DNA from: Desarmillaria ectypa
Taxonomy: Eukaryota > Basidiomycota > Agaricomycetes > Agaricales > Physalacriaceae
Assembly: GCA_030407005.1 (NCBI GenBank)
Contig: JAUDYN010000011.1
Location: 610,501 to 674,500 of the forward strand
Length of the DNA stretch: 64,000 bases
Reading direction: 5' to 3'
The notes under the pieces are model-generated. The model was not told the DNA's origin. It saw nothing but the letters and a program-made list of their open reading frames with translations, and searched no databases. The translations under genes were made by a program, and so were the position numbers. Of the stretch, positions 10,279-59,775 are shown in pieces. Numbering within the stretch: the first letter of the stretch is position 1; each line of letters opens with the position of its first letter.

Positions 10279-13200
10279 GTCTTTTACTTCCTCTATCTTG
10301 GACATAACTGGCCCCATTTCATCAGAGGGCCTCAAGAATCTCACAATGTTCTTCTCTTTTCTTGTAGGGCAATTCTTGCTCAGGTGACCCTTCTCATTGC
10401 ATCTAAAGCAGCACCCCTCAGCTCATTGCTGGTCTAAGTCCATGGCCTTCCCCACCCCTCCATAAGTCGTCCACTGACTAGTCCCTGCATCCTGACTGGT
10501 ATTACTGCCAGCAGTCGGCTTTGGGGCCAAGGAACTTGTCACCCCAGTGGTGTTCTTGCTGCTGGGCTGCTGTTGTTGGTGATGCAGGCCCTGCTTCTGG
10601 CTGTCCCGAGGCATACTGGTGGTCTGGTCAAAGACCCACTTCTGCTGTCTCTCTTCATACATCCAGAGGATGTATTCCTTCCATTTGGGGTATGAGCATG
10701 GAATATTGATGCCCATGTTGGAGATGAAGGTGGTGTAGGAGCTTGGGACTCCTAGTCTCACCACCTTCACCATGATGCCACACTCAGCTTTGTCAGTCCT
10801 TTGGCCCACTAGCTTGGCTTCCTCCTCAAGCTTCTGGGAGTAGTGGGAGGCAGGCTGCGCTCCCATGCAGAGGTTGAACATCTGCTTCTCGTGGATCTTC
10901 TCGATTGCAGGATCCTGGAATTGTCATGTGACCAGGTTGACAAAGTCAGTCTAATTGAAGTATCGGAAATGGGCGGTGGTCCCATCATATGAGTCACTGA
11001 CCCAGTATTTGGGTCTCTTGTAGACCCACCAGTCCTTGGCGGCGCCCTTGAAGTGGAATGTCGCGAATAGCATCAGGTGCGACGGCACCTGGAAATAATA
11101 GCAGAACACTTCAAAGTAGGCAATGCAATTGCCGATGAAGCATTCAATGTTATCATGATTCTCTTTGAATGGCAAAGAGACCTTGACAAGTGTTGGTTTG
11201 ATGCTCAGATAGGGGGCATCAGCAGTGGCATTTCCGATAGGGTTAGGGATAGGGTCAGGTGGACCCTTGCCGGGGGGTGGTCTTGGGATCGAATAGCGAT
11301 CTGGCCTGGAACCTGGGTAATCTCTTGATGGTTCACCTGACAGTCTGCCTCTCTTGGGCTCTTTCCCCTTCTCCTGGTCACAGAGATAATCTGTCATCAT
11401 TTTCCTGGTGGATTCTTCTCTATCTAGCTCTTCGCACATCTCTGCGATGCACCTTTCTTTCTCCATCAGAGCAGTTTTTGTCTGCTGACAGATTTCTTCT
11501 GCTGTGGCAGGGGTTCTTGACACCCCTGCAGTGGCACTTCCTCCAGGGATGTTTTCTGCTTCCATGTCTTCTCCCGCCCCTGCAAAGAGAAGACTACCAC
11601 CCTGATAAGGGTGGTAATCTTGGTGATATGCCTGATGATGTGGGGGCGAGTCGGGAAGTGGTCGTGGGTTCGCAACTGAGGTATCTGGAGGGTGATCCAG
11701 ATATATTTCATATTGGGGCTGGTGATAGTCCAGCCTATCATAATAACCTGTATCATAGATTAATATGTCATACTGGGGCCTTTGCCCCCAATCATTCCTC
11801 TCTCACCATCTCCAGCCTCCATAAGTGTTGGATGGTTCACTCCAACTCCCTCTGCTCCTCTGGATCTCAGGCTTGAAGCCCTGGAAATAAATTCCCAGTG
11901 GAGGGGCAGAAAATACTCCAGTCACAGTTTGTGCCTATCCAGGAATTGATGATTGTGGCCTGATCTGGGCCTCGAATGGGGTCCCCTCAGTTGAGGGCCA
12001 ACCACTCATCCATTTCTGGTCTGGGCTCCTCCCAGAGATCTCAGGCTTCAACGTCTCAGTGTCAAACTTCCTATGTGGCAGTCCAGAATGGACTGAAAAT
12101 TCTTCGATCAATCTCAGAGAGGTTGAGCCAGATGAAATCCCCCCCATTTGGATTGAAGGAGTCATTGGGGGCATGGGGAGGGGCCAGAGTTGGGGCATTA
12201 TACTCCCTGTCAGACTCATCATCAGAGATTTCGATGATAGGGAGTGAGGAGATGGAGATTGAGCCTCCTTGGGGCCAGGTTTCATGGCCCCAGAGGCTGT
12301 AAGGGTGGTTGTGATCCATGGTAGAATTGTCTGGGTTTCGGGGTCCATGATAGAACCCATTGTCACTGTCCAGGGAGGGAGAGCAGGATCATACATGCCA
12401 GTGTTGCTGGTGGAGGGCGGAGGTTGTGGGATGAGGGGATAGGCCAGAGTATGGGGGCGGGGCATCATCGAGTGCAACCTGAACATCTCACACATATTCT
12501 TGGGCTGCTGTGAAGGCGGCGGTGGGTTGTTCCATCCGGTACTGGTGATGTGCTTGGTAACGGCAAGTGACAAAAGAATTAGGGAATGGCAATGAACACC
12601 AATCACACTAAACCTCTTACTACTCTACACTTAATCACCAATATTGAATTTGGGCGGTTTCGAGTATGATGGAAGCACTCTGCAGACTTCAATAATCAAG
12701 TACAATTGTCTTTAAGACGTTTTATTCATTACTAGTGAGTTTATACAAAGTACTGCTCGTACTAGTGGGGTGGGTAAGATACAATTGGATAAGAGTGACT
12801 TGGTTTAAGCTACTGTGCTCGTTCTGACTGAAACTGCTTCAGACTGGTGGCACTCTTGGCCCTATACTGCTTCCTACAAGTGATAAACACTTGACTAGCC
12901 ACACTCTTGGCTAACTAGTGGTGCTCTTGGCCTAAGAATAAACTATAACTCCAAGAACTTTGCTTGAACTAACTTCAAAACACTCCGGACCTTTGCAGGA
13001 CACAACAGTGACTCTAATGGACTTCAATTCAATGCAATTCTATGGGTGACTTAGCGACTATTAATCACTTCATCGAGGTTAAGCACAAAAGCCTTTAATT
13101 GGGGACACCAGTTACTACCAGTGAGGGCTCAACTGCAGGGATGGCTTGCCTGCTTTGCACAAGCGCCCACCCCACTACTTATATACTACTGAGGCAAAAC

Positions 13201-14087
13201 TATAAATATCATCTGGGTATAGAGTATATTGGTAAGGATTTCTTGGCTAGTCACAAATAATGGTGAATAATCACACAATAGTCAGTCTAGTCTGTTTTCT
13301 TTTCAAATATTTGGTCTAAAGACTCCACAGTTGGTCTTTTCACACCCTTGGCACAACTACATGCCCTAGTAATGTGGTTATATGAATATCTGGATATTGG
13401 TACCTGTAACAGCTATCTGATCATAATCGAGGGTGCAGTCCAGCTTCACTAGTACTGATCATAAGAGATCTATATTGAAATAGTCAGATCTGGGCTCAAG
13501 GTTAATCCATTCCTAATTTGTTTCTAAGTCCTGTTTCAAGATTGCCATGTGACTAGTTATCCTGACTTAGGCGTTTATGCCCAGTCTGGGCTGCTAGTGA
13601 CAGAACTTGATGAGATCTGTGTACTCTGCTCCTGGTTTTTGTGTGCTAGTAGCATCCTTCATTTGCTAGTGGCTGTATTTTACTTAGTCCTGCTAGCATT
13701 CGAGTTACTAGTCTGGCTGGCTGGTAGATTTAACCCACTAATAGTGTTGCATCTAAGTCCTGGCTCTACCAGTTGCTTACTGCTTTTAACTATCAGCTCG
13801 AAGCCTCAGCTATAGTCCTCTATGTATCACTAGTATAGGATAGATGTGCAATAGTATTGTTACAAAATCGCAAAATCTAGGTGTGAATGCATAGATGGCA
13901 TATCACCGGAGTAGAACTGCCCACACATTATGGGTGTGGGCAGATGAGGGCCTAGGACTTGGGGGCCTCTCAGAAGCCATGCTCCCCTCAGAGGAGGAGG
14001 CAATTGTAAATCTTGCCCGGGGATGAACGAGTGGTAGCGCCTCTCATTCTCCCAGTTGGGCAGCAGGTAGCTCCTGGGGAAGGACAT
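10276..14087 (-). pseudogene. Element A gag (capsid and zinc knuckle), split by R1
   Basis: The capsid/nucleocapsid part runs 11565-10276 with DWWVYKRPKYWV, FQKLEEEAKL-type blocks and one CCHC knuckle (CFRCNEKGHLSKNC, about 10420-10380). The same frame is traceable upstream through YGGWRW and SAPPLGIYFQG blocks and, across the R1 insertion, to an ATG at 14085-14087 (MSFPRSYLL). Removing R1 with one 4-bp target copy (1364 bp) keeps the frame. Stops are few: TGA mostly, plus a TAG near 11933. Upstream of about 11900 a second frame is also conserved, so the true Gag start is uncertain. Gag would package element RNA into particles. Confidence 0.7.
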
Positions 14088-14280
14088 GGTCCAGGTGCCT
14101 AGAGGGTCATGGTGGTGGTGCAGGTCGTCGGGCTCACCTTTGTTGGAGCAAAGCCCAGAGTTCTTCCTTATAAAGTAATATGGCAAGGACCATGAAAAAA
14201 GTCAAAAGTATGGCACCACTGATAGTGACACCAAGGGAAATGGTTCGGGGTTCTTGTTGGTTGTTTTCTTCTTCAGGCAT
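11792..14280 (-). other. Element A accessory reading frame overlapping 5' gag region
   Basis: In the phase of the membrane microprotein, and continuous across R1 when R1 and one target copy are removed, lies a conserved frame. It includes LGE-stop-EALPLV, AVLLRYRME, QEYV, MDHNHPYSLWG, then SSLPIIEISDDESD and FIWLNLSEIDRRIF, ending with TGA at 11792-11794 after a helical WRLEMVREE. The equivalent frame in element E differs mainly at its third codon positions around the IEISDDESD block, indicating protein-level constraint. How it is initiated is unknown, since a stop follows the membrane segment. Confidence 0.5.
12546..13905 (+). mobile_element. R1 copy 1: 1.36-kb TG..CA element (solo-LTR-like)
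   Basis: Begins TGATGTGCTTGG and ends GATGGCATATCA. The termini form an imperfect 8-bp inverted repeat (TGATGTGC/GCATATCA). Flanked by CTGG (12542-12545) and CCGG (13906-13909), a 4-bp target duplication with one transition. A TATATA-containing stretch (about 13183) could be a promoter. It interrupts element A, so it is younger than A. No gag or pol is present in any of the four copies, so it is either a long solo LTR of an unseen retrotransposon or a non-autonomous element. Confidence 0.75.
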
Positions 14281-17829: not shown

Positions 17830-20177
17830 CTATTCTTTTGCCTCCTCAATCTTGGCTATAGGTGGCACCACTTCATTAGTGGGCCCTACTGACCAAATAT
17901 CCTTAAAGTCCTTTCTCTTAGGACAGTCCTTGGCCATGTGACCTTTTTTATCATATCAGAAACATCTCCTCTTAGTCTTTCATCAATCAATTTCCATAGG
18001 CTTACCCATTTCTCCATATGTCATCCATCAGTCTATCCCAGCATCCTGACTGACTCCTGCATTCACAGTCAGCTTTAGAGTCAAGGAACTTATTGCCCCA
18101 GCAGTAGCTTTACTGCTGGGATGCTGTTGTGAGAGATTGGGATGGGAGTCCTTCTTTTGCCCATTCTGGGGAATGCCTGACATTTGGTTGAAGACCTATT
18201 TCCTTTGGTGTTTCTCATACATTCATGAGATCTGCTCCTTCTACTTTGGATACATGTGCAGGATATTGACACCCATATTAGAGATAAAAGTCATGTAGAA
18301 GATTGGTACTCCCAGATGAATGGTTTTCACCATGGCACCATACTCATTTTCATCAGTCTGTCAGCCTGCCAATTTGGCTTTCTCTTTCAGTTTCTGGAAG
18401 TAGTGGGAGATGAGCTGCATTCTCATCTGGAGATCAAACATCCACTTTTCATGGACCTCTTCAATCGCAGGGTCTCTAAATTGTCAAGAGACCATGTTGA
18501 TGAAGTCATCCCAAGCAGGATAATGGAAGTGGGCAATGGTGCCATCTTATGCATCACTGACCCAGAATTTAGGTCTCTTGTAGACCCACCAGTCTTTGGC
18601 AGCCCCTTCAAAGTGTGAGGTTGTGAACAGTACCAGGTGTGACAGCACCTGGAAATAGTGTCAAAACACTTCAAAGTAGGCAATGCAATCACCAATGAAG
18701 TGTTCAATATCATTGTGATCCCCTTTGAATGACTTAGGAGGTTGCACAAGAACAGGTTTGATCCCTAGGTAAGGGACATTGTCAGGCATATTTCTGATGG
18801 GATTGAGTATAAGGTCAGGGAGTCCCTTTCCTGGCAGCAGTCTTGGGATCAAAAATTAATCCAGCTGTGGACCAGGGTAGCCTCTTGGGGACTCTGTGGG
18901 CCTCCCACACTCCAGCTCTTTTCCTTTGTCATTTTCACTGAGATACTCTGCCATCAGCTTCTAGGCAGCTTTCTCTCTGGTGAGTTCCTCATACATCTCC
19001 TGGATACATAGTTCCTTTTTGGCTAGCATAGCCCTTGTTCGCTGCTGAAGTTCTTCTGCCATTTTTGATAATGAGGATGATCCTGCAGTGGCAGAACCTG
19101 TAGAGATCATGTCAGGCTCAGGTTCTTCTCCTGTGCCTGTGAATAAAAGGCCACCACTCTGGTAGGGGTGGTAACCTTGTTGATGTGCCTAACTGTGTGA
19201 TGGTGAGTCGGACAAGAGTCATAATCTTATGGCTAAAGTGTTGAGAGGGTAGTTGGGATAATTCATATATTGGGGCTGAGAATATCCCAACCTGCCATAG
19301 TGTCCATAGTCATATGTATCAAACCTGGACATCCTCTCCATTTTCCTCCCTTCTGGCAAGTTCCAATTGCTAAAGTTGTCAAAGGGCATGACTCAGAGCC
19401 TATTGTTCTGCTGCCATCCTAGGGTAAAGCCTAGGTACCAGATCTCCTAATATGGGATGGTATAGCTCCCTGTTCCAGTTGGCATATATCCAGGCTTGAA
19501 TGGTGGCACCCCAATTGGGGTCACCTCTGTTGAGTGCAAGCCACTCATCTATGTCAGGCTGAATTTCTGGCCATTCCATCCTATGTTCAACATCAGTTCT
19601 TCTAATCTCCCAGATGATTGCTGTGATGGGACTGAGTATCTCCTGATCAATGTTGGTGAGTTCTGGCCAGGTTCACTCTGGTCTATTGGCATTGAATGGA
19701 CTGTTGGGAGAAAGGGAAGTGGTTGTGGTCGCAGTGTTTGATTCTTCATTGGAGTTGCTGGAGAGTTCAATAATGGGAAGTGAGGAGGATGAATTGGTTC
19801 CTCCTTGAGGCCAGGAGCCTCATTCTCTAGCCCAGGGTCCATATGGGTGGTTCTGGTCCATCTCTGGGTGATCAGAGTGATGGATTCCAGAATAAGATTG
19901 GGCTGAGATAGGGGCATAGGGACACTTGTGAGCAGTATATGGGGGAGGGGGGGGGGGGGGTCCTCGATCTCAGCCTGTATATACCTTGCATATTCCTGAA
20001 TGAGGGTGAGGGTGGTTTATTCCAGCCAGTTGTTCAAGGGGCCTGAGGTTAGGGTCCTCCTGTTATTGGTGGTCTCCTCAAAGGAGGAGACAGTTGAGAA
20101 GTGAACTTGGGGATGAGAGAGTATCTTCTCTTCCTTTGGTCCCAGTTGGACAGAGGAAGGCCTCCTGGAAAGGCCAT
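17830..20177 (-). pseudogene. Element B gag and overlapping accessory frames
   Basis: Minus strand. The capsid part is about 18900-18100 (HFEGAAKDWWVYKRPKFWV-like block near 18600-18540) and a degraded CCHC knuckle lies near 17960. Gag ends in TAG at 17830-17832, preceded by GCA-AAA-GAA. An ATG at 20175-20177 opens the conserved MAFPGG frame. The accessory frame with SSLPIIELSSNSNEES (about 19780) ends with TGA at 19319-19321, overlapping an in-frame gag ATG a few codons upstream (MERMSRF). A G tract at about 19945-19960 varies the frame. Confidence 0.65.
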
Positions 20178-20235
20178 AGTCAGGGTATTAGAGTGGTTGG
20201 AGTGGGATTTGTGAGCAATAGGGTCACCACTCTTG

Positions 20236-20367
20236 TCAGAGAAGGGTGTGGATTTCTTCTTCATATATTAGTATGAAGAAGGCAGTAACAAGGATGAGTA
20301 GAGTAGTGCCACCAATTGTGACACTGAGAGTAATGGTTTTCTGGTTTTGTCAGTTTTCTTTAGGCAT
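20236..20367 (-). pseudogene. Element B membrane microprotein ORF
   Basis: Reads MPKEN-stop-QNQKTITL, then the hydrophobic span VTIGGTTLLILVTAFFILIY, EEEIHTLL and TGA. It aligns with the microproteins of A, D and E and sits in the same place, 58 nt before the MAFPGG ATG. One TGA in the N-terminal part makes this copy a pseudogene. Confidence 0.6.
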
Positions 20368-20814: not shown

Positions 20815-23660
20815 TCCACAAATTTGGTGATGTCATCTGCCTTGTTGTGGGTTCTATCTGTATTGTATATAGGGATTGGGGCAGCAGCTTGTCAAGTGTT
20901 CAACTGGTGTTGTTGGATGTATGTTCAGTTGATAGAGCTGCCAGTGCAACCACTATCCAATAGTGTCCTTATCATCATAGCCTTCTTCCTCATACAAGGG
21001 GCAAGTTATATATCCACCATGAAGTCTCTTTTTGAGCTCTTGGTTTCTTAGATATATCGAATTGGTTTATGAAGTTCATAGGGCCACTCTTGAGCTTGGC
21101 TCTCTCCAGTTTGTAAGCTTGTTATAAGCTCATCAGTGATTTCTCCAAATTGTTTGGGGTAAACCCACATAGAGAGAGCAGCTTTGGCAACTGCCAAGTT
21201 CTTTGTGATGTGAATAGCACATAAAGTCCAATTGACTCCAAATGGCTTGTACCACACATGATTGGATATCCCCTTGTTAGGCAGAGTTTCAGGTTTTAAT
21301 ATCAGATTTGTTGGTTTGGACTATCATGCTTTCCATTATAGGAAAGCTGTGTTGTCCTTTTTATTGGGTACTTCAATGATAGTGACTCTGTGAAAGTGCC
21401 CCCTCTTTACCATCTGGGCATTAGTCATTCCTCTCTGTTCATCAGCTATCACTGCTACCAATAAGGTTAGAGTAGCAGCGCTGCTGTCTCTGAAGGTGTC
21501 AACTGGTGAAGTCAGCATTTGGCATTGGGCTCCACCTACTTGCCCCAGTCTATGATGTTATCTGTATATTTGGTAGACTCAGAGAGTCTGGTGAACTTTG
21601 TGTGGTGCTAGCATCACCTGGCAGAACCCACACTTCATTGAAGGGGTGGGATTTACTATAGATAGTCATATCAGTACACTCTCAGAGTGCATTGTATTAG
21701 TTTGTCAATTCTTTCAGTGTATTTAGTATCAGAATCTGAAATAAAGTTATATTTTTTTGTGTATTTAAAGGTTCTAATGCATGTATATAAGTCTGACCTA
21801 TGAAAACTGAGGACTCACCACTGGAGGCTTTAGCTATGTAAGAGGAATCAAACCCTTGACAGCTTAATCTTTTGCCTCTTCAATCTTGGCCATAGTACTT
21901 TCCACTATATTAGCTGTACCTACTGACTGAATGTCTTTGAAATCTCTTTTCTTAGGGCAATCTTTGGCCATGTGGCCCTTCTCATTGCAGTGGAAGGATC
22001 TTCGGCCTTTTGTCAGTCTACTTCCATCAGCTGTTCCAACCTCCCATATGTTGTCTATCAGCCTGTTAAGGTATTCTGACTGGGACCTATATTGGCCATC
22101 AGCTTTGGAGCCGAGCCACTTGTCACCCCAACAGTGGCTTTGCTGTTGGGTTGAGGTTGGGGGGGGGAGGCAGGAGTCCTTCTTCTGACTCTCTTGCAGT
22201 ATTTTGGTAGTTTGGTCAAAGACCCATTTCTGCTGTCACTCTTTGTACATCCAGAGGATGCATTCCTTTCATTCCAGATATATGCAAAGGATGTTAATGC
22301 CTATATTGGAGATGAAGATCATATAGGAAGATAGTACTCCTAAATGTACAGCCTTCATCATAGTGCTGCATTCTTGCTCATTGGTTCACTGACCCCTCAA
22401 CTTGGCTTCTTCTTTCAGCTTCTGAAAGTAGTAGGAAGCTGGTTGGGTTCCCATTCATAGGTCAAACATGTATTTTTTGTAGACCTCCTTGATTGTAGGG
22501 TCCCTTCTCCAGGGATAGTCTCAGAATTGAGAATTGATCTGGCCTTCCTATTGAGGTGCATACAGGTTTAGCAGGTCTTCTGCACTCAGGCTTCTTTTCC
22601 TTGTCCTTGAGGTGCCAAACTGTGGCATAAACTGCTTTGGTGGCTTCTGCCTCTGCAAGTTCTTGATGAATCTTCTTGATTCATCATTCTTGTTTAGCTA
22701 GTTTGTCCTCTGTTCTTCTGCTGATGGCTGTAGTGTTTCTGCAGGTGTGGAACTTGGTCCAGAGTCTTTTCCTGCACCTGCAAATAGAATGCTGTCACCC
22801 TAATAGTGGTGGTAATCAGGTTGATGGGCTCAGTTAATAGGCAGCAAGTCTGGAAGGGATTGTAGCTGTTGAGCTAGAGTGTTAGGAGGATAGTGGCTGT
22901 ATGACATATATTGGGGCTGGAATGATTCCAGCCCAGCATAATATCCTGCAGAGTATATAAAATTATCAAAATTAGCCCTCAGGCCTCTTCTCTTCTGGTT
23001 GATTGGCCTTCTTTTTGGCCAACTCCTGAAGGGTGCACTCCAGTTCACACTGCTCCTCTGCTATCTGGAGGCATAATCTGGGTGCCAAGTCCCCAAAGAG
23101 AGTCAGATTAATGTCTGAGAGCTCAGGCCACTCATAATCAGCCCCATTGGGATTGAAGAGGCTGTCAGAGGTAAGGGGAGTGGTCAGGGCTTCAGAATTA
23201 TCAGAGTTGTCAAAGACTTCAACAAGGGGGAGGAAGGATGAGGAGTTAGACTCTGTTTCTCTGCTGGACCAAGAGCCTCACTCTTGGGTAATGATGGCCC
23301 AGAGGCCATATGGATAGTTTTAGGAATAGAGTATGTCTATTCCAAGATCATTTGGGTGTCAAACTCTGTTATGGATTGAACAAGGTAGAGTATAGGGGGG
23401 GTGGCAGGAGTTTATAGGAGATTCTGAATATATCTCATATGTTTCTCACATATTTTTGGGTGGCAGTGGGTCATTCCACCCAGTTGTTGGAGAAAGGGGT
23501 TGAGGTTAGAGTCCTCCTGCACAGAGGAAACTCTTTGGAGGTGTTTGTGAAACAGACCTGGGGATGAGGGATCCCTTCTTCTTTCCTAGGTGCCAGACTT
23601 GTGATAGCCAACCTGGCAGGGGCTGGTTGCCTGGGTAAGATATATAAAGAATGTTGGGGT
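20815..23660 (-). pseudogene. Element C protease start, gag and accessory frames
   Basis: Minus strand. Protease is at 21060-20815 (continuing at 2393), and the pol N-terminal region at about 21840-21100. The gag stop TAA at 21864-21866 is preceded by GCA-AAA-GAT. A broken knuckle and capsid lie at about 22000-22500, and upstream gag contains SAGYYAGLESFQPQYMSY (about 22960-22900). The accessory frame ends in TAA at 22972-22974 after a charged helix. The MSFPGG start of the other elements appears as ATA (ISYPGNQPLPGW, about 23645). Capsid is internally deleted relative to A. Heavily decayed. Confidence 0.65.
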
Positions 23661-23687
23661 GGGTGAGGTAGGAGTTGGAGTTTAGAG

Positions 23688-23828
23688 TCATTGTCTCCAA
23701 TGTAAATATGCATGGATTTCTTTTTTGTATGTGAGTACAAAGAGTGCTGTGAATAATACTAATAGGAATGCACTGCTGATGGCTGTACTAAGAGCAATTG
23801 TTCATCTTTGTTCTGGTTTTTCTGGCAT
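23688..23828 (-). pseudogene. Element C membrane microprotein ORF
   Basis: MPEKPEQR-stop-TIAL, then the hydrophobic span SAFLLVLFTALFVLTY, KKEIHAYLHWRQ and TGA. Same position relative to PBS as in the other elements. One TGA, probably from CGA, precedes the membrane segment. Confidence 0.6.
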
Positions 23829-36391: not shown

Positions 36392-36787
36392 TGTTATGAT
36401 TTTTCCATTATCTTATCTCATCTTGTTATATCTATGACACCAACTATCTTATCTCAGTCAGCATTGATGCTTTCACCAACAAACACCCCATTTCTCATCC
36501 AAGAACACCCTCATTTACTTTCATTGGCTTATGATCCATCTGACTTCAGTCCCATTTACTCATGGACAATACTGTTTCATCTATTAATAACACTGTATTT
36601 TCAGTATATAAGTAGAGTAGATTACACCATTATACTCTACCTTTTGACTAAATTACATTTATATACCTTCTACCACACCACACCAAAGACCAAGCCAACC
36701 TCTCTACTAAAGGGTGATTGTCTGAACACAAGACAGCCCAGAGAGAAGCTTACATCCCAAGTCACATGTATAGACAGGACCATAACA
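36392..36787 (+). repeat. Element D 5' LTR
   Basis: TGTTATGATTTTTCC...GACCATAACA, 396 bp. TATATAAG at about 36605, then the R segment CTACCTTTTGACTAA about 30 bp downstream. PBS at 36788 (TTAGTCAAAAGGTA) is its perfect 14-nt complement. U5 hairpin TGTCT/AGACA at 36719-36735. Confidence 0.93.
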
Positions 36788-36846
36788 TTAGTCAAAAGGT
36801 ATCCCTCCTGCATCTTCTATGCCAGCCATAAAGACACACCAACCCT

Positions 36847-36972
36847 ATGCTCAAGAACAATGACAACCAGAACAACCAACAAACAATCACTCTCAGCATC
36901 ACAATCAGTGGCATCACACTCCTTATTCTTTTTACTGCTCTTTTAGTACTAACATATGAAGAAGAAGCATGA
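36847..36972 (+). CDS. Element D membrane microprotein (conserved leader ORF)
   Basis: 41 codons: MLKNNDNQNNQQTITLS, then the hydrophobic span ITISGITLLILFTALLVLTY, EEEA and TGA. No internal stop in this otherwise decayed element. It lies 59 nt after the LTR and 73 nt before the MSFPGG ATG (37046). Predicted single-pass membrane peptide, homologous to those in A, B, C, E and F. Function unknown. Confidence 0.65.
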   Translation: MLKNNDNQNNQQTITLSITISGITLLILFTALLVLTYEEEA

Positions 36973-37771
36973 AGACTTCTTCACTAAGAAAGACAACTCT
37001 GTAACCTGCAACCCCCTCCCCATTTTCCTGCCCAACACTCTGAACATGTCCTTCCCAGGAGGATATCCCCTGTCAGACTGGGAACAAGAGAGGCAGCTCT
37101 ATTATCCCACCCCTGGGTCAGCTTCAGAGTCCCCTTGACAGCTTCATCCTCCTCTGAGGATATCAATCAGAATCCCACAAGAACAATTCTTGCAACCCAC
37201 TGGCTAGAATGACCTGCCCTCACCAAGGCTGAGGAATATGCATGGGACATTTGGGCTCAGATTGATAATCCCCTGCCCCTATACTCTCTTTCCCCTCATC
37301 CCTGTTCCCCAACTCCTGCTTGGCCCTATCTCAGGGCCTTACAAATCAATGATCCTAATGTGGATCAAAACCACTCTTATAGACTCTAGGCTCAAAGATG
37401 AGACCCCTAGCCAAGAAGGAACCAAGACTCCTCATCCTCACTCTCCATCATCAAACTTTCCTTCTCAGACTTCAGAGGAAGCTCAAACTCTAAAACAGAG
37501 TTTATACCACTCACCCCTCTCCTTCCCCTCACCCCTGATGGCCTCTTCAACCCTGATGGAATAAGTCAAAACTGGCCCACCCTTATGGCCATCGACTGAG
37601 AAATTCTTGGCTCTATCACATCTGTCACCTGGAAACTCAGGTGAGCTGATGTCAAAGCCAGAATAGCCTGGCCAGAGCACCATCCCGATATGAATGAGTG
37701 GCTCACTCTTAACCAGAGCAATCCAATATGGGGACTGAACCCCAATACTACAATTTGGGCCTAGATCCATG
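36973..37771 (+). pseudogene. Element D accessory/5' gag region, left of the E insertion
   Basis: Two conserved frames overlap here. The frame opening at ATG 37046 reads MSFPGGYPLSDWEQERQLYY and has TGA and TAG breaks later. The frame in phase with the microprotein reads HVLPRRISPVRLGTREAALL, then EEYAWDIWAQIDNP and EWLTLNQSNPIWG, and continues after element E at 46194. Across the E junction the second frame from the microprotein ATG to TGA 46355-46357 is an exact multiple of three (1089 nt). Confidence 0.5.
37767..37771. repeat. Left target-site duplication of element E (CCATG)
   Basis: CCATG at 37767-37771 is repeated exactly at 46189-46193, outside both 424-bp LTRs. Confidence 0.95.
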
Positions 37772-38195
37772 TGTTACAATTTTTCCATTATCTTATCTTA
37801 TCCAAGTCATATCCATGCCTCATCCACCTAATCTAATCCAAAACCTGACTCGTATCCAGCTATTCGCTGGCTACAACCCTCGTTCTCACCATCTGTCACC
37901 CCAGACACTTTCTATTGGTTCTATGATCCTCCCGGATCATCCTACTTTGACACCATTTGTGCATGGACCATAGTGTTTCACCTAAATATACACGCCATAG
38001 AAATACTATATAAACAGAGTAAACTAGACTGTTGTACTCTATCTCTTGTTTAAATTAATATTATATACTTCTTGTTCACACAACACAGAAGACCCTCAGC
38101 TTCTATCTCTCTCATTGGGTGATCGTTTGGACGTGTAATGGCCCAGAGAGATCAGCTGATCGTCTCAAGTCACGTGCCCAAGTCGGTGCCTAACA
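37772..38195 (+). repeat. Element E 5' LTR
   Basis: TGTTACAATTTTTCC...GTGCCTAACA. TATA box CTATATAAACAG about 38009-38020, with the R segment TATCTCTTGTTTAA at about 38040. Retains more CpG than the other LTRs (for example CACGTG and CGGATC). Confidence 0.95.
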
Positions 38196-38210
38196 TTAAA
38201 TAAGAGATAA
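38196..38210 (+). promoter_or_regulatory. Element E self-complementary primer-binding site
   Basis: TTAAATAAGAGATA follows the LTR end directly and is complementary to TATCTCTTGTTTAA in the LTR R region at 13 of 14 positions (one transition). No TGG start or tRNA 3'-end complement is visible. This matches the self-priming arrangement known for Tf1/sushi chromoviruses, where the 5' end of the RNA folds back as primer. Confidence 0.7.
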
Positions 38211-38254
38211 TCCCCTTCACTTCTATTATGCTAGCCATATAGAAGATCTTCTTC

Positions 38255-38407
38255 ATGACCAGAGAAGACAGAAACTCCCAAGAACCCCGAACCATATCCC
38301 TCGGCGTCGCCATCAGTGGTGCCATACTATTGTCGTTTTTTACGGTCCTCACCATATTAATATACGAGGAAGAAATCCGGGCTCTGCTCAGAAGGCAGCC
38401 CCAATGA
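38255..38407 (+). CDS. Element E membrane microprotein (conserved leader ORF)
   Basis: 50 codons: MTREDRNSQEPRTISLG, hydrophobic span VAISGAILLSFFTVLTILIY, then EEEIRALLRRQPQ and TGA followed by C. First ATG after the PBS that opens more than a few codons. The pattern Q/T-I-T/S-L-x-V/T-x-I-S-G-hydrophobic-Y-E-E-E is shared by six elements of differing age. Not similar to any gag, protease or envelope segment I know. Inferred to be a single-pass membrane peptide with a short acidic cytosolic or lumenal tail. Could alternatively be a regulatory upstream ORF, but the amino-acid conservation argues for a protein role. Confidence 0.75.
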   Translation: MTREDRNSQEPRTISLGVAISGAILLSFFTVLTILIYEEEIRALLRRQPQ

Positions 38408-38444
38408 CCCGACCCAGAACTCCGCCCTGCTCCACCCACCACCA

Positions 38445-38726
38445 ATGATGTTCCCAGGGGGATACCCCCCACAAGACTGGGAGAACGAGAGGCAGTTTCA
38501 CTCATTCGTCTCCAGGCCCGATTCATCATCGGCCCTTCCTCCTCCTCCAAGGAGAGTAATGACTCAAGATCCCCATCTCTGGGGATCTCAGAACTTCGGG
38601 CCCAGATTGCCCAATCTGCTTGTGCCTATAATGCGAGAGCTGTCCTTCTCCGCTACCAGATGGAATGACCCACCATTGCACTGGAGCGACCAACAGTCGG
38701 CCTCATGGAGGCCAAAGAATACGTGA
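38445..38726 (+). CDS. Element E second leader ORF, MSFPGG type
   Basis: 93 codons from tandem ATGs (MMFPGGYPPQDWENERQFHS), TGA at 38724. It opens 37 nt after the microprotein stop in another frame. The first 25 residues are conserved in A (14087), B (20177) and D (37046), with differences concentrated at third positions of this frame, so it is probably translated there. Downstream, the same frame is open again to 39743 (331 codons), with only two TGA between, and in element A it is colinear with capsid. It may be the real N-terminus of Gag or a separate small protein. Pro/Ser-rich, otherwise featureless. Confidence 0.45.
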   Translation: MMFPGGYPPQDWENERQFHSFVSRPDSSSALPPPPRRVMTQDPHLWGSQNFGPRLPNLLVPIMRELSFSATRWNDPPLHWSDQQSASWRPKNT

Positions 38727-39457
38727 GGGACATTCGGGCTATGATGGATGAACCCCCACCCCCATATCCTGGCCCCCCCCCTTGTCCAAGAACCCCTGCT
38801 CTCTGCATATCCCAGTGGAGATCAGACTCCCCGTCGCCCGACAGTGACAACAGTAGAAGGTCTGGCCACTCCGGACCCCAACACCCCAACGATCCAAACA
38901 TGGATCGAAACCACCCCTATGGCCCCTGGAGCCGCGAGCAGTGGCCAGATGAGGGAGAAGAAATCTCCCTCTTCTCCCTCCCCGTCATCGAGATCTCTGA
39001 TGATGAGTCCGACAACAATATCGTCAGAGACAACACCCCGGTCCCAGCCACTCCCCATGCCGCCGACGACCCCTTCAATCCAGATGGGGATAATTTCATC
39101 TGGCCTGACCTCTCCGAGGTCGACCAGAGACTATTTGGTCCATTCTGGACTGCAGCATGGGAAGTTTGACAAAGGGATGTCGAGGCCCGCGACCTCTGGG
39201 AAGAACCCAGAGTTGAGATGGATGAGTGGCTCACCCTTAACAGGAGTGACCCCATCTGAGTTCCCTTTGATGGGCCCAGTTCCTACAGGGCCAACATCAT
39301 CAATCACTGGATATGTGCCAATCGCGACCGGTCAATTTTCCGCCCCTCCGCCGGGGATCGTTTTCCAGGGTTACAACCCAGGACCACTCAGGAACAGCGG
39401 GAATTGGAGCGGACCCTCCAGCACTTATGGAGGCTGGAGGTGGCAAGAGAGGAATGA
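38534..39457 (+). pseudogene. Element E accessory frame with acidic SIM-like motif
   Basis: Same phase as the microprotein. Blocks: ELRAQIAQSACAYNARAVLL, EAKEYVRDIRAMMD, MDRNHPYGPW, FSLPVIEISDDESDN (about 38976-39020), FIWPDLSEVDQRLFGPFW, EMDEWLTLNRSD and a terminal helix EQRELERTLQHLWRLEVARE, then TGA 39455-39457. Internal TGA at 38666, 39167 and 39257 sit where other copies have arginine (CGA) or its CAA derivative. A/E differences near the acidic motif fall mostly on third positions of this frame. VIEISDDESD resembles a SUMO-interaction motif (hydrophobic core plus acidic/Ser tail). Initiation mechanism unknown. Confidence 0.5.
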
Positions 39458-40912
39458 GTGGGGGCAAGAGCCCCAGTACAATACGTTAACCTACAATACA
39501 GGTTACTATGGCGGGATGGAATACCACCACTTCCCAACTCGCCCCCATATCATAGGGCATGTCACCAAGGATACCACCCCTATCAGGGTGGCAGTCTTCT
39601 CTTTGCAGGGGCGGGAGAAGAAATGGAAGCCGAAGGAGCCCCTGCAGGAAATGCCACTGCAGGGGCGTCAAGAACCCCTGCCATGGCAGAAGAAACCCGG
39701 CAACAAATGCAGAACGAGTTGCTGGAGAAAGAACAGCACATAGCGGAAATGTGTGAAGAGCTCGACAAGGAGGACTCCGCCCGCAAGACATTGGCGGACT
39801 ACCTCTGAGTCCAAGAGCAGGAGAAGGAGCCGGAGAGGGGAAGACCCCTGGGGCCGCCAAGAGGTCACCTGGGGTACCGGCCGGATCGATTTTCGATCCC
39901 AAGGCCGCCCCCTGGTCAGGGACCCCCTGACCCAATCCTGAACCCGGTCGAGAATGCCACTGCTGATGCCCCCTATTTGGGCATCAAGCCAACCCTCGTC
40001 AAGGTCCCCGCCCCATTTAAGGGGGACTATGATGATATTGAGCACTTCATAGGCAATTGCATCACCTATTTTGAAGTGTTCAGACACTATTTCCAGGTAC
40101 CATCGCACCTGGTGCTATTCATGACGTCCCACTTCGAGGGTGCCGCCAAGGACTGGTGGGTCTACAAGAGACCTGAATACTGGGTGGGGGATGCCTTTGA
40201 TGGCACCACTGCCCACTTCTGATACCCCGACTGGGCCAACTTCATTGACCTGGTCACGCGACAATTCTGAGATCCCACGATCGAGGAAATACATGAAAAG
40301 CGCATGTTCAACTTGCATATGGGAGCACAGCCCGCCTCCCATTACTTCCAGAAGCTGGAAGAAGAAGCCAAGCTAGTGGGCCGGAGATCCAATGAGGCCA
40401 AATGTGGCGTGATGGTAAAGGCAGTGCGACTAGGAGTGCCTAGTTCATATACAACCTTTATATCGAACATGGGCGTGAGCATTCCGCCCTCATATCCGGA
40501 GTGGAAGGAGTGCATCCTCCAGATGTATGAAGAGAGACAGTGGAAATGGGTCTTTGACCAGACCACTAGTACACCCCAGGATGGCCAGAAGCAGGGCCCG
40601 CGTCCCCAGCAACAGCAACCCAGCAGCAAGAACACTGCTGAGGTGACAAGTTCCTCGGCTCCAAAGCCAAGTGCTGGGAGTGGGGGAACCAGTTGCGATG
40701 CTGGAACCAGTAAGTGGACGACGTATGGAGGGGCGGGGAAGCCCATGGATCTAGACCAGCAACGAGCCGAGGGGCGCTGCTTCAGGTGCAACCAAAAGGG
40801 TCACCTGAGCAGGGATTGCCCTATGAGAAAAGAGAAGAACATTGTGAGATACGTGGGGCCCACTGATGCAGTGGTGCCAAGTACCTCCAAGATCGAGGAG
40901 GTAAAAGAGTAG
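39458..40912 (+). pseudogene. Element E gag: capsid and zinc knuckle
   Basis: Capsid-type domain from about 39980 (PFKGDYDDIEHFIGNCITYF, HFEGAAKDWWVYKRPEYWV, YFQKLEEEAKLVGRR) and one CCHC knuckle CFRCNQKGHLSRDC at 40778-40819, ending in TAG at 40910-40912. First in-frame Met of the conserved MEAE start is 39623. TGA stops at 39806, about 40220 and about 40268 replace arginines. Around 39520-39535 E lacks about 25 codons that A, C and D have (a QPQY...RPRP segment), which shifts frame relative to the upstream MSFPGG phase. Gag forms the particle shell and binds RNA. Confidence 0.8.
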
Positions 40913-43900
40913 GGTGTCAAGGGTTCGATTCCTCTTGCATGCCCAAGTCTCAAGGTGTGTCCTCGGCTTCTGTGGGTTGGACTGACTATTATGAAAATAG
41001 AAAATTACATACACAAAAAAATATATCTATATCTTCACCGAAGCCGAAGAACAAGAAAGAATCAGCAAGAACAAACAGGTACATCATCCTTCTAGAAGAA
41101 GCTGATACAAGTATCTGTAGTGACAAATCCCGAACCTCTGATGAACTGGAGTGGGACTTGCCAAGTGGTGTTGGCGCTGCAACAAAGTCCAACGAGCAGT
41201 GCTCACCGGATATGCCGCTGAGTGCACAGCAACGAGCAGGGACCAGTAGGTGGGACTCCTTCGGGCCTCCCAGAAGTCCAACCATCCCAGTACCTGCCTC
41301 AAGCGGCGGGGCAAGCTCACCAGTTCCGCCAGGGTCGGCGGAGGACCAGGACAGTGCCTCTAACCAAGGCCAGGATCAATGACCCAGACAAACCAGTCCG
41401 GGGAGTGGAAAACTTGATGAAGCTGAGTACCAAACTGGGCCGGCAAGTCAAAGGGTCAACAACCGTGCAAAGGTCACCTTAGGCACTAGCTGGGAGTCAA
41501 TGACCAAGGGAATTCAAACTCCGTTGTGAGTGGTGCCGGCTGAGGAAAAGGGACAGGATCCTGCTAGCACCCAGGCAGTAAAAAGGGGGTATTTCAGCAA
41601 AACTACCATTGTTGAAGTACCCGACAAAGAAGATGACATGGCTTTTAGGATGTGGCAAGTCAGCCAATCCAAAGCCAGTACCCCAATATCCAGAACACCA
41701 GAAACACAGAACCTTGACCTTCCGAATGCATGGGGAAGCGTCAAACCCGACACCTATCCTAACAAGGGGGTATCAAACGCTTCTGAACGCATGGGGAAGC
41801 AGGACAAATTCCAATAGCTCAAACCATTTGGGATTGACTGGATGATGCATGCAATATGCGACTCCAAGAACTTGGCAAATGCCAAGTCAGTTCTCTCCAT
41901 TTGGGTACATCCCAAATGACTTGGAGAAATCGATGACGGGCTTATTCAAAGCTTACAGATGGGAGGGAGCACTGCCTGGGAACAGCTCTATGAATTACAT
42001 GAACCCATTCATTACATTCGCGGCACCAAGAGTTCTGGACAGGACTTCTTGGTAGACATCCAACTTTCCCCATGTACTGGGAAAAAGATATTGACAACCC
42101 AAGTGTTGTTGGATAGTGGCTGCACAGGCAGCTCTATCAATCGAACTTACGTTCAACAACATCAGTTGGACACCAGGAAGGCTGCAGCCCCTATACTGGT
42201 CTATAATGCCAATGGAATGCACAATAAGGCAGGGGATGTCACCGAGTTTGTAGAACTCCGGATGACAATTGGAGGACATAGCAAGAGAATCGATCTCACA
42301 GTCACAGACCTCGGTTCCAAAACTGTGTACTTTGGCCACGACTGGCTTAAACACCACAATCCTTTCATCAACTGGAAGGCAGGGACTTTGACATTCGGAT
42401 GATGTCATTGTGTCCAAAATTATTTCGCCTTGCCTGACGCAGACGAAGAAGATCGATGGGATGAAGAGCTCGAGGAAGGAGAAAGTATTCTTGCTGTCAA
42501 TATGCAAGAAGAAATCATCCTTCGTGCCATCCATCATGCGAATGAGTTGGTGGCAGCAGCCAATGCCAAGAAACCAAAGAAGACATTTGAGGAACTCATA
42601 CCTCCTCAGTATCAAAGCTTTAGAGATTTATTCTCTAAAGACAGCTTTGACAAATTACCCAAAAGAAGACCCTGGGACCATGCCATCAAGTTGATCCCCA
42701 ATGCGAAGTCAACCTTGGACTGCAAGGTGTATCTGCTCAATTGAAATGAGCAAGAACAATTGGACAAGTTCTTGGATGAGAACTTAAACTTGGGGCGCAT
42801 CTGCCTCTCGAAATCTCCCTTTGCCTCTCCATTCTTCTTTGTTAAGAAGAAAGATGGTTCCCTATGACCGGTCCAGGATTACCGGAAGCTTAATGAAATG
42901 ATGATCAAGAATCATTACCCCCTTCCACTCATCTCCGAGTTAATCGACAAACTACAGAGAGCCAAGTACTTCTCCAAGTTGGACGTACGATGGGGATATA
43001 ACAATGTCCACATCCAAGATGGAGATGAAGAAAAGGCTGCATTCAGAACTAACCGAGGACTCTTCAAACCCACAGTAATGTTCTTCGGACTTACAAATTC
43101 ACCAGCCACATTCCAGTGGATGATGAATGACATATTCAAGGATTTGATCGCTGGAGGAAAAGTCACCATTTACCTCGATGACATACTCATCTTCATGAAA
43201 TCCTTGTCAGAACACCGGGACATAGTACGACAGGTACTCCAGCAACTTCGAGAGAACAAATTGTTCCTCAAAGCAGAGAAATGCGAGTTTGAGGTACTCG
43301 AAACTGAATACCTAGGGGTTATTATCAGCGAAGATGCCATTCGCATGGACCCAGTCAAGATAGCAGGGATAGCAGAATGGCTGACCCCAACAAAGAAGAA
43401 GAAATTACAATCCTTTTTGGGATTCACAAACTTCTACCAGACATTCATCAAGGACTACTCCAAGATAGTGCATCCCCTTACCCAGTTAACTGGAAAAGTT
43501 GACTGGACATGGGGATCAGAACAAGAACAAGCATTTAATCAGCTCAAGAAGCTGATGACAACAAACATAGTCCTTACAATCCCTTCAGATGATGGGAAAT
43601 TCCAAGTTGAAGCTGATGCCAGTGATGGAGCCATTGGCGCCATCCTAAGCCAAGAAAAGGAAGGCAAGTGGAGGCCAGTCACCTTCATGTCGAAAGCACT
43701 CACTGTCACTGAACGCAACTATGAAATCTACGACAAGGAGCTGCTAGCAATCATGTTGGCATTAGAAGAATGGTGTCATTATCTCATGGGCACCAAAGAG
43801 ACCATTGAGATCTGGACTGACCACCAGAATCTCCAATACTTCCGGAAACCCCAGAAGTTGAACCGTCAACAAGCTCGATGGGTCACCGAGCTAGCGGAAC

Positions 43901-45732: not shown

Positions 45733-45764
45733 CAGTCAGGACGACTGCTTTAACAAGGGGGTAA
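45732..45764 (+). promoter_or_regulatory. Post-pol hairpin and polypurine tract of element E
   Basis: GCAGTC-AGGAC-GACTGC (45732-45748) overlaps the last base of the pol stop, followed by AACAAGGGGGTAA, the plus-strand priming polypurine tract directly before the 3' LTR. Equivalent hairpins: A 5330-5346, B 2798-2814, D 54067-54083. Confidence 0.7.
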
Positions 45765-46188
45765 TGTTACAATTTTTCCATTATCTTATCTTATTTGAGT
45801 CATATCCATGACTCATCTGCCTAATCTAATCCAAAACCCGACTCGTATCCAGCTATTCGCTGGCTACAACCCTCGTTCTCACCATCTGTCACCCCAGACA
45901 CTTTCTATTGGTTCTATGATCCTCCCGGATCATCCTACTTTGACACTGTTTGTGCATAGACCATAGTGTTTCACCTAAATATACATGCCATAGAAATACT
46001 ATATAAACAGAGTAAACTAGACTATTGTACTCTATCTCTTGTTTAAATTAACATCATATACTTCTTGTTCGCACAACACAGAAGACCCTCAGCTTCTATC
46101 TCTCTCATTGGGTGATCGTTCGAACATGTAATGGCCCAGAGAGATCAGCTGATCATCCCAAGTCACGTGCCCAAGTCAGTGCCTAACA
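45765..46188 (+). repeat. Element E 3' LTR
   Basis: 424 bp, TGTTACAATTTTTCC...GTGCCTAACA. Differs from 37772-38195 at roughly two dozen sites, nearly all transitions and many of CG/TG/CA type. Confidence 0.95.
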
Positions 46189-46193
46189 CCATG

Positions 46194-54067: not shown

Positions 54068-54099
54068 CAGTTGGGATGACTGCTTTAACAAGGGGGTAA
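54067..54099 (+). promoter_or_regulatory. Post-pol hairpin and polypurine tract of element D
   Basis: GCAGTT-GGGAT-GACTGC (54067-54083; one T-G pair) then AACAAGGGGGTAA before the 3' LTR, same geometry as in elements A, B and E. Confidence 0.65.
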
Positions 54100-57605: not shown

Positions 57606-57728
57606 ATGAAACCCAATCCCAGCAAAACTCAAACCATCACTATTAGTACTGCCTTTGAGAGTGCTATTCTGATTTTCTTTTTCACTGCCCTAATCTTCCT
57701 TGTGTGGAGAGAACAGATAAAAAACTAG
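57606..57728 (+). CDS. Element F membrane microprotein (conserved leader ORF)
   Basis: 40 codons: MKPNPSKTQTITIS, hydrophobic span AILIFFFTALIFLVW, then REQIKN and TAG. The most divergent member of the family, yet same location and layout, and free of internal stops in an element whose gag is full of them. Confidence 0.65.
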   Translation: MKPNPSKTQTITISTAFESAILIFFFTALIFLVWREQIKN

Positions 57729-59775
57729 CTACACTGACAACATATTCTATGTCTCCAACCACCACCCCCATTCCCTCTACACTATATCCTTCTCTGATGA
57801 CCAACCATCACCACAAGGGTGGATTCTGCAAATCTGACACTCTCTCTAGAGAAGAACATCCCAACCTACTGTGCTATCTTCATATCCCAATCCTCTGATG
57901 AGTTCCTGCCATGCCAGCAGGAGTCAATTTGACCCATAGCCTCTGATTCCACCTAATCAACAAGAATAGAATGATCCACCACTGTGAAGAAATATGCATG
58001 AGACCTATGGACTAGGTTCCAAACCCTGAGCGACTCTCTCTCTCCTATGAGCCTGCATATCCTGCTCATGCATGGGTATGATACAGAAGCCATGCCAGGA
58101 TGGCAATACCCCATCTCAACAGTCTTTATGGTCTCTGGACTACTAGAAAAACCCCAGCCCAAAGCCAGAAATGCATCCTCTGGCCAACTGATGGAGAGAA
58201 GAGCAACTCCAGCTCTTTTCTTCCCCTCATCAAACTCTCTGATGACCCTGCATCCACCCCAACTCCCTCCACTCCCTGATCCCCCATTGACCCCTCTCAC
58301 ATTCAAGGCTCCAACTATAAGTGGCCCAAACTTGCCAATGTCAATCAAGAGATTCTCAGCCCCTTCAAAAGTGAGGCATGGGAGCTCAGAAGAAGTGACA
58401 TTGAGGCCTGAACCTCTTGGCCCAGCATCTATCCCAAGATGGATAAGTACCTTGCCCTCAATCAAAAGGATTCAATCTAAGGCTCCAGTGCAGGTGCCAC
58501 TATATATGCCTGGATATATGCCAACTGAACATATAGTCTATATCCCTTATTAGCAGAAGATAGGATACCTGGCTTATGTCCATGAATAACCAATGAGCAG
58601 CAGGAGTTAGAGCATACTCTTCAGGTCCTGGTATAAAGAGAGGGGGACTGGCCAGATCTCGACAGCCAATTTTAATAGTTTTACACATAATACAGACTTT
58701 TACATAGGGCTGGAATCATTTAAGCCCTAATATATGTCTTTTTATGACTATCCCCCTGACATCTCCCTAAACCAATTCAGACCTCTCTCTGATTCTCCAT
58801 CTCCTGTGGCTGACATAATCATATTGCCACTCTTACCTGACATCTTTCATTGGCAGAAACTGACAAGCTGAATCTGGCAACAGAACTTCCATCCCTATTA
58901 GAGAGAAAATCTTCTATTCACAGAAGCTGGGGAGGATCCCAGCACCAGTATGGCATCACCAGTACCACCCCAACTGACCAAGAAGGAATGACTCTTACAA
59001 GCCAAAGAAGACCTAGTTCAAAAGAATCTATAAATCAAGAAACTGTAACAAGAACTCACTGCAGCTAAAGAACTACAAGATGGGCATGTCAAATTTTGGC
59101 AGTTTCCCATCAAAGAAAAACAACTGGAATGAGGTAGGACCTGGAACCCATCCCTGGATCCATCCTCATAGACTGACTGATACTCTATCTCACACTTACC
59201 CCCTAATCTATATTTTAATCCAGTCAGCAATGCATCTAGCAGTGTCTCATACCTAGACATCAAACTAGTCCTAGTACAACCATCAAAGCCCTTCAAAGGA
59301 GATCACAATAACATTGAAAGATTTGTAGATGATTGTATCACCTATTTCAAAGTATTTTGACACTACTTTCAACTATCCTCTCACTTGGTTTTCTTTGCCT
59401 GATCCCACTTTGAAGGAGCCATAAAAGACTGGTGGGTTTACAAATGTCCTGAGTATTGGACTCCAACCAGTACCACTGGAATCTCTGCTTATTTCAGTAT
59501 CCAAACTGGGAAGACTTTATCGACCTGATTATCCAACAGTTCTACAATCCCACAATTGAAGAAATCTACAAGAAAAAGATGTTTGATCTTCATATAGAGA
59601 CACAGCTGGCCAGTTACTACTTTCAGAAATTGGAAGAAGAGGCTAAATTAGCAGGACAATAGACTGACAAGAATGAGCAAGGTGCCATGATGAAGACAGT
59701 ATGACTAGGAGTCCCCAGCTCCTATATAATCTTCATCTCTAACATAGGCATGAATATTCTGCATATGTATCTTGA
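57729..59775 (+). pseudogene. Element F accessory frames and gag, 5' part
   Basis: Accessory frame with ARNASSGQ-type open stretch 58047-58553 in one phase and WIYAN...YSLYPLLAEDRIPGL with a C-terminal QQELEHTLQVLV helix (about 58506-58675) in another. Gag resumes with EDFIDLIIQQFYNPTIEEIY and ASYYFQKLEEEAKLAGQ (59510-59662), preceded by DWWVYKCPEYW at about 59430. Stops and frame changes throughout. Cut by R1 at 59776. Confidence 0.6.

Follow-up and report, generated by a model that had tools for sequence, protein, structure and literature searches.

A predicted membrane protein gene overlaps the gag frame of a family of self-priming chromoviruses in Desarmillaria ectypa

In gammaretroviruses, a membrane-anchoring N-terminal sequence lies upstream of gag on the same mRNA and gives rise to glycosylated Gag as an in-frame extension of Gag. 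The polerovirus ORF0/ORF1 and lentiviral Vpu/Env genes are overlapping pairs reached by leaky scanning, Vpu being a small membrane protein; to our knowledge, no comparable leaky-scanning overlapping pair has been described in LTR retrotransposons. Tf1 is known to prime from its own mRNA end, and the ORF3 of bdelloid rotifer elements lies downstream of pol.

A membrane ORF upstream of gag has been described in Ty3/gypsy elements of the insect MDG1 group (412, Stalker2 and Mdg1), where it is called sORF2 (Voichek et al. 2025, PMC11952523), and the passages of that paper drawn on here contradict the statement, made in a sequence-only reading of the locus studied below, that no Ty3/gypsy family has such an ORF before gag. 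According to these passages, sORF2-like proteins have 63–107 residues and an ectodomain of near 30, and often carry an N-myristoylation motif, which some of them also lack; the MDG1 elements suggest that an upstream membrane ORF can serve envelope-free cell-to-cell transfer, and the authors describe fusion assays in simple systems as unsuccessful so far (PMC11952523). The bdelloid rotifer LTR elements have an added ORF with membrane spans and no canonical envelope, with two membrane regions in the case of Vesta4, and the portions of that paper cited here do not mention an overlap with gag (PMC5408684). A literature search at the level of titles and abstract openings listed no retrotransposon of a fungus in which a membrane ORF overlaps gag, and no literature was found on the gag ORFs of Armillaria LTR retrotransposons.

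Here we describe such an overlapping frame, ORF0, in six related elements (A–F) contained in a 64,000-nucleotide stretch of the D. ectypa genome (the window). Judged by their sequence, these elements belong to the self-priming chromodomain Ty3/gypsy retrotransposons and have three genes. A Pfam search with the pol product of copy L046 returned RVT_1, RT_RNaseH, rve, SH3_Tf2-1 and Chromo domains; outside pol, Pfam gave a weak gag domain. The sequence directly behind the LTR is complementary to a stretch 32–34 nt behind the TATA box, from which the mRNA start was placed. The longest exact complementary runs measure 13, 14 and 13 nt in C, D and F and 7, 7 and 8 nt in A, B and E. Both arms of F have a sequence unlike that of C and D, and complementarity reaches 13–14 of 14 positions in all 20 young copies. 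In view of this LTR-adjacent complementarity, the 5′ end of the element's own mRNA most likely serves as the primer. In their chromodomain, SH3_Tf2-1 domain and priming by the mRNA's own 5′ end they are like the Tf1/sushi-type self-priming chromoviruses. They are unlike them in the presence of ORF0, the majority of fungal elements having one or two ORFs in the relevant part of a 2010 survey (PMC2864245).

Compared with sORF2, ORF0 is similar in being single-pass (here by prediction), in lying on the sense strand upstream of gag in a Ty3/gypsy element, and in having an aromatic residue and, in some copies, basic residues beside its span. It differs in its length of ∼400 residues, its ∼1 kb overlap with gag, its conserved long tail and its occurrence in a fungal chromovirus. 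Since its length, ectodomain and lack of an N-myristoylation motif depart from what is given for sORF2, we do not class ORF0 as a member of that group. A membrane ORF upstream of gag is thus of a kind already known from insect MDG1 elements; its overlap with gag is not expected in this element type. ORF0 is unlike the in-frame extension of glycosylated Gag in that it occupies another frame and has its own stop, and it is like the polerovirus ORF0/ORF1 and Vpu/Env pairs, to which it is not homologous, in that a weakly initiated first ORF overlaps a second one in another frame.

The sequence-only reading had reported a single-pass membrane microprotein of similar sequence at the 5′ end of all six elements. 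We found a similar peptide encoded at each of these sites, on the minus strand in A, B and C and on the plus strand in D, E and F, with T-I-T/S/A-L/I followed by one hydrophobic span in every element. The span scores as a membrane segment, with a mean Kyte-Doolittle hydropathy of 2.2–2.6 over 19 residues in the six elements, the B and C peptides having entered the scoring as pieces without their first residues. The Y-E-E-E-like residues reported to follow it are present in A–E but not in F, which has W-R-E-Q. The four peptides described as having no internal stop are those of A, D, E and F, B and C having one stop each, and in all six elements a stop follows within ∼15 codons behind the peptide. 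When the genome containing the window (40.6 Mb, 32 contigs) was searched with the E peptide, all 150 scored matches (of 502 candidates) had E ≤ 0.01, indicating that the peptide is far from chance. With the E, D and F peptides as queries, at least 150, at least 150 and at least 147 matches were obtained, respectively, in partly overlapping lists, which point to several diverged lineages of one family with the ORF0 front end.

This peptide is the N-terminus of a protein of ∼400 residues. Of 20 less decayed copies, which were picked for long frames and read at length, 13 have an uninterrupted ORF0 of 395–402 codons between its ATG and a shared end, and an open frame of at least 395 codons was reported for 23 of the 150 E-peptide matches, a number in which codons before the ATG are counted and one of the 23 frames has stops inside the match. 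The less broken copies have three long frames, namely ORF0, gag (∼841 codons) and pol (∼1629 codons); gag, which is in the +1 frame, begins 190 nt behind the ORF0 start, and its end is overlapped by pol, in the −1 frame. Using the ORF0 of L046 as a tblastn query, residues 1–400 were matched in E at 68% identity, E itself being broken by stops, and residues 7–334 (at 31% identity) and 355–400 were matched in D. Matches in pieces covered residues 1–133 and 143–400 in A, 7–105 and 173–400 in B, and 13–76 and 213–295 in C, and residues 222–391 were matched in F, whose first part was matched only as peptide. The parts in A, B, C, D and F sit in different frames, reflecting insertions or indels. Similarity over the whole protein was also found in further lineages beyond A–F. 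By these comparisons ORF0 is a conserved predicted protein of ∼400 residues that can be traced in each of the six elements and also in Armillaria (see below). The positions of its parts in the window are listed in Table 1.

Table 1. Positions of ORF0 parts and associated features in the window
Feature	Position	Strand	Basis or remark
5′ LTR of E	37772..38195	+	3′ LTR at 45765-46188, 95% identical
Presumed mRNA 5′ end of E	38040..38053	+	Complementary to priming site; 13/14 by eye in E
Self-priming primer-binding site of E	38196..38209	+	Directly behind LTR
ORF0 of E, whole	38255..39454	+	400 codons aligned; peptide of the sequence-only reading is the first 50 codons
Predicted membrane span of ORF0 in E, residues 18-36	38306..38362	+	Hydropathy 2.49; helix 12-36 in L046 model
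N-terminal gag of E, +1 to ORF0, overlapping	38445..39530	+	tblastn, gag 1-361
ORF0 of D up to near E insertion	36847..37728	+	Peptide and tblastn
ORF0 of D, last 46 codons	46193..46330	+	tblastn; directly behind inserted E
ORF0 of A, N-terminal, residues 1-133	13906..14280	-	tblastn; cut by inserted repeat
ORF0 of A, C-terminal, residues 143-400	11795..12535	-	tblastn
ORF0 of B, N-terminal part	20059..20367	-	Peptide and tblastn
ORF0 of B, C-terminal part	19346..19963	-	tblastn; another frame, beside poly-C tract
ORF0 of C, N-terminal part	23607..23828	-	Peptide and tblastn
ORF0 of C, residues 213-295	23092..23358	-	tblastn
ORF0 of F, N-terminal with predicted membrane span	57606..57728	+	Peptide match, hydropathy
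ORF0 of F, residues 222-391, SUMO-interaction-like stretch and C-terminal region	58118..58630	+	tblastn

Element E (37772-46188) is inserted in the ORF0/gag overlap of D (36392-54493), and D resumes directly behind the 3′ LTR of E. A separate repeat family of ∼1.1–1.4 kb, whose members are 82–96% alike (12545-13905, 47649-49081, 59776-61137 and 55529-57099), is inserted in the ORF0/gag overlap of A and elsewhere.

The origin of the stop behind the peptide can be seen in the alignments of related copies. In 23 copies of the D lineage, taken from 150 D-peptide matches, the column of the D stop reads TGA in 12, TAA in 1, TGG in 2, TGC in 2, CAC in 2, CAA in 2, CAG in 1 and AGA in 1. Thus 13 of the 23 have a stop, nine have another CpG product of an arginine codon and one has the arginine codon AGA. 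Since all of these codons except AGA are CpG-decay products of an arginine codon, we attribute the stop behind the peptide to decay. In 31 copies of the E lineage, the column of the E stop reads AGA (22), TGA (4), CGA (3), AGG (1) or CAA (1). Many of the stops fall in CpG-derived codons, indicating that strong CpG decay acts on these elements. The feature seen by the sequence-only reading is therefore real, but the decayed front of a gene was taken for the whole gene, the early stop in A–F being decay; CpG decay can turn the front of a longer gene into a false microprotein. The G+C content of the window is 43%, compared with 47–51% in the stretches of 20 young copies.

ORF0 is under purifying selection, in line with the outcome that the sequence-only reading had proposed to look for. 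In the part of ORF0 before gag, transitions amounted to 2/98 nonsynonymous versus 15/50 synonymous, considering alleles present in at least two of 17 copies taken as young among the 31 of the E lineage. For these counts and those given below for the overlap, columns with CpG were removed, which took out 309 of 1400 columns in the set of 17 and 427 of 1400 in the set of 31, and each site-allele was counted once, the copies sharing ancestry. The D lineage (23 copies) agrees, with 11/26 synonymous versus 7/62 nonsynonymous transitions (p 0.003) and 8/26 synonymous versus 10/148 nonsynonymous transversions (p 0.001). Within the overlap, transitions silent in ORF0 only were more frequent than those altering both proteins (35/233 versus 11/262, odds 4.0, p 3.8e-5), and selection on ORF0 was detected from transitions in all four data sets and from transversions, with significance only when all 31 copies were used, in two of four. 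Changes silent in gag that alter ORF0 were slightly commoner (odds 1.4–2.6), with p below 0.05 in three of eight tests. Across 13 other pieces, the values by codon position were.435/.258/.529 in the ORF0 front,.401/.324/.383 in the first half of the overlap and.382/.279/.472 in its second half. Taken together, the substitution and codon-position data indicate that ORF0 clearly codes for protein and that gag probably does so too within the first half of the overlap, whereas little gag constraint is seen in the second half. The claim of an ORF before gag holds for a conserved coding segment with the predicted span 5′ of gag, but not for the gene as a whole, the gag start lying ∼190 nt inside ORF0.

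The openness of the gag frame was compared with that expected under synonymous shuffling of ORF0. In eight of eight copies the gag frame has no stop in the ∼1 kb over which it overlaps ORF0 in the +1 frame, where 4–6 were expected (P 0.001–0.0025 in each), and its longest open run is 349–354 codons (P ≤ 0.004 in all eight). One antisense frame is open for 311–322 codons, with P of 0.001–0.005 in five of the eight copies and 0.04–0.10 in the other three, and the remaining three frames gave P ≥ 0.05 in all eight. Since the copies are related, these tests are not independent, and since an antisense frame is nearly as open in five of the eight, openness alone is no proof; dual coding of ORF0 and gag in the overlap is nevertheless likely. 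An example of the antisense frame is L008 574-1515, which may be a composition accident or an antisense gene. Every one of the 31 E-lineage copies keeps the gag ATG, as do 21 of the 23 in the D lineage; its +1 relation to ORF0 is kept in 30 of 31 and 20 of 23, respectively, so that gag is not in frame with ORF0.

We examined the start codons of both frames for features relevant to their translation. Position −3 of the ORF0 AUG is a pyrimidine in all 31 E-lineage copies; in the D lineage, an ATG stands at the start column of D in 13 of 23, and the −3 base is C in 7, T in 7 and G in 6, with a gap in 3. Position −3 of the gag AUG is A in all 23 D-lineage copies, but in the E lineage 27 of the 31 copies have C there, a weak context. 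In a total taken across 20 related copies, 14 AUGs were found between the presumed mRNA start and ORF0 where 30 were expected, and 5 between the ORF0 and gag starts where 15 were expected. These data fit leaky scanning in part, and we consider it somewhat more probable than not that ORF0 is translated in this way. Some ribosomes would probably initiate at the weak ORF0 AUG, while those that pass it would continue to the AUG of gag; as we propose, one mRNA would in this way yield both proteins. The genes would then be read in the order ORF0, gag from ∼190 nt inside ORF0 (+1), and pol after a −1 step.

Relatives outside the genome were sought among proteins. A search with the C-terminal part of gag yielded 39 relatives among 7995 candidates scored, of which 35 are from Armillaria ostoyae, one is from Armillaria solidipes and three are nameless. 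A whole-ORF0 search gave no relative among the 7993 candidates with the most words in common, the probable reason being that low-complexity words filled the candidate list; with the C-terminal part of an Armillaria protein as the query, 12 proteins including the query were obtained among 140 candidates, all of them from A. ostoyae. P0040 of A. ostoyae is a stand-alone ORF0 relative of 387 residues that is 34% identical to L046, and its locus tag is two away from that of the pol protein P0038, whose contig has the same length. Among 18 Armillaria proteins with the C-terminal motif, 15 have PPxY, 15 have the hydrophobic-acidic stretch and, by eye, 14 have a membrane-type N-terminus; the regular expression used for this motif missed P0020 and P0025, which are also ORF0-like. 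ORF0 relatives were not found in Pfam, among solved structures or in phage records.

ORF0 comprises a predicted N-terminal membrane helix, a proline-rich linker with a PPxY motif, a hydrophobic-acidic stretch that we take to be SUMO-interaction motif-like, and a conserved C-terminal region. Read without following indels, 25 of the 31 E-lineage copies have PPxY and 23 the SUMO-interaction-like pattern, PPxY arising in 7% and 18% of shuffled linkers. The structure model obtained for ORF0 of L046 is of poor quality, with a mean pLDDT of 48. It contains helices at residues 12–36 (pLDDT 61–82), 109–142 (∼58–71), 286–314 (∼59–66) and 378–398 (50–81) and low-scoring ones at 322–330 and 343–361 (∼46–55), the rest being unstructured. 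The span starts at residue 15–18 in A, D, E, F and L046, and the N-terminus comprises 14–17 residues in A, D, E and F. Directly behind the span stands Y in A–E, W in F and N in some Armillaria proteins, and within 15 residues behind it there are 2–5 basic residues in A, C, E, F and L046, 1–4 in eight Armillaria proteins and none in the decayed B and D. By basic counts, an N-outside/C-inside orientation is favoured in L046, A, C and all eight Armillaria proteins, level in B, E and F, and reversed in D. An N-myristoylation motif is absent, the N-termini being MSGED, MTRED, MLKNN, MKPNP and, in Armillaria, MTPD and the like.

On this evidence ORF0 is very probably inserted in a membrane, as a single-pass protein whose short N-terminus would probably be outside or luminal and whose long tail would be cytosolic. 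We favour the reading that it is a membrane protein made separately from Gag, which we hold to be somewhat more probable than not and with which the alternatives considered below are partly compatible. In the best-supported reading its tail would act as a membrane-bound adaptor. NEDD4-type ligases are bound by PPxY motifs, which in some retroviruses function as late domains, as stated in the passages cited (PMC2940739, PMC2958808). The PPxY motif of the tail would recruit NEDD4/Rsp5-type ubiquitin ligases, and Gag or partners from the host would be bound by the conserved region at the C-terminus, so that particles would be placed at a membrane; this adaptor role with Gag is put forward tentatively. 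Gag membrane anchoring and membrane disruption, two roles offered in the sequence-only reading, are possible.

ORF0 might instead be made as the front of Gag by a +1 frameshift or splicing, which would give a membrane-anchored form of Gag. Several Armillaria gene models do join the ORF0 N-terminus to gag in one protein, and it is the second half of the overlap that shows the least constraint on the gag frame. These models, however, join the two at differing points, as prediction artefacts would, and are read as such here, splicing being the alternative; moreover, a stand-alone ORF0 model exists in P0040, no candidate intron joining the two frames was found in 12 copies under one donor-branch-acceptor pattern, and A, B, D and E all preserve the gag AUG together with the first residues behind it. 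We therefore regard synthesis as the front of Gag as unlikely. The same weak gag-frame constraint, with little of it in the second half, means that the gag start could lie further on, in which case only ORF0 would be real in most of the overlap and the gag frame there would be an accident of composition. The ORF0-type codon pattern of the second half and the antisense frame that is nearly as open in five of eight copies are consistent with such a later start. Against it stand the open gag frame in all eight copies at the probabilities given above, the match of A, B, D and E to gag at its start and over its first residues (C matching by eye, and F not), and P0039 of Armillaria, which is in the gag frame from a similar start and is 31% identical over gag residues 5–615. 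A later start of Gag is accordingly rather unlikely.

As to function, ORF0 could act like MDG1 sORF2 and the reoviral FAST proteins, whose short outer N-terminus, span and basic, proline-rich tail (PMC11952523) would have their counterparts here, and fuse or bridge membranes so that particles pass between cells, which would be a special case of the separate membrane protein. Its location upstream of gag, its one span with an aromatic neighbour (Y or W), the basic residues behind the span in some copies and its proline-rich tail are in keeping with this idea, but it has no N-myristoylation motif, its N-terminus in A, D, E and F is shorter (14–17 residues versus ∼30), and it has 400 residues rather than 63–107, with a tail conserved at length. 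We judge this activity improbable. Slightly more improbable still is that ORF0 is an envelope-independent transmission factor whose PPxY tail brings capsids to the plasma membrane, the element passing between hyphae; that it arose, on such a reading, independently of insect sORF2 and overprinted with gag is given the same low weight. A stand-alone membrane microprotein or a short regulatory uORF, in some lineages at least, would account for the stop within ∼15 codons in all six elements and for the TGA at one place in 12 of 23 D-lineage copies. The column of that stop, however, varies as CpG decay of arginine would, and the downstream protein is conserved as ORF0 in the six elements and reaches its own end in 13 of 20 copies. 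Since ORF0 has ∼400 residues, with an early stop by decay, and does not end near the gag start in less decayed copies, a regulatory uORF of the kind once suggested is unlikely. Both forms were rejected on account of the long frames, the ORF0 similarity in A–F and the CpG-decay stop column, and we consider them highly improbable even for single lineages; no young intact D-type element open through the stop column was found.

Our analysis thus points, from sequence comparison, to a conserved gene for a predicted membrane protein that, in this family of self-priming chromoviruses, overlaps the frame of gag. If ORF0, which is under selection in this genome and traceable in Armillaria, is a membrane protein made separately from Gag, the pair would be a rare case of dual coding in an LTR retrotransposon and would provide, beside insect sORF2, an independent case of an envelope-less retrotransposon with its own membrane protein. 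It would also make testable the idea that fungal retrotransposons use membranes to assemble or even to exit the cell.

Two minor observations were made on individual copies. One of the copies L048 and L049 lies on a 26 kb contig and its partner on a large contig; their ORFs are identical throughout, with pol displaced alike, and they probably represent a duplicated or haplotype stretch. On the opposite strand beside another copy (L010 2117-3148), an open frame resembles, by eye, a Ty1/copia-type reverse transcriptase.
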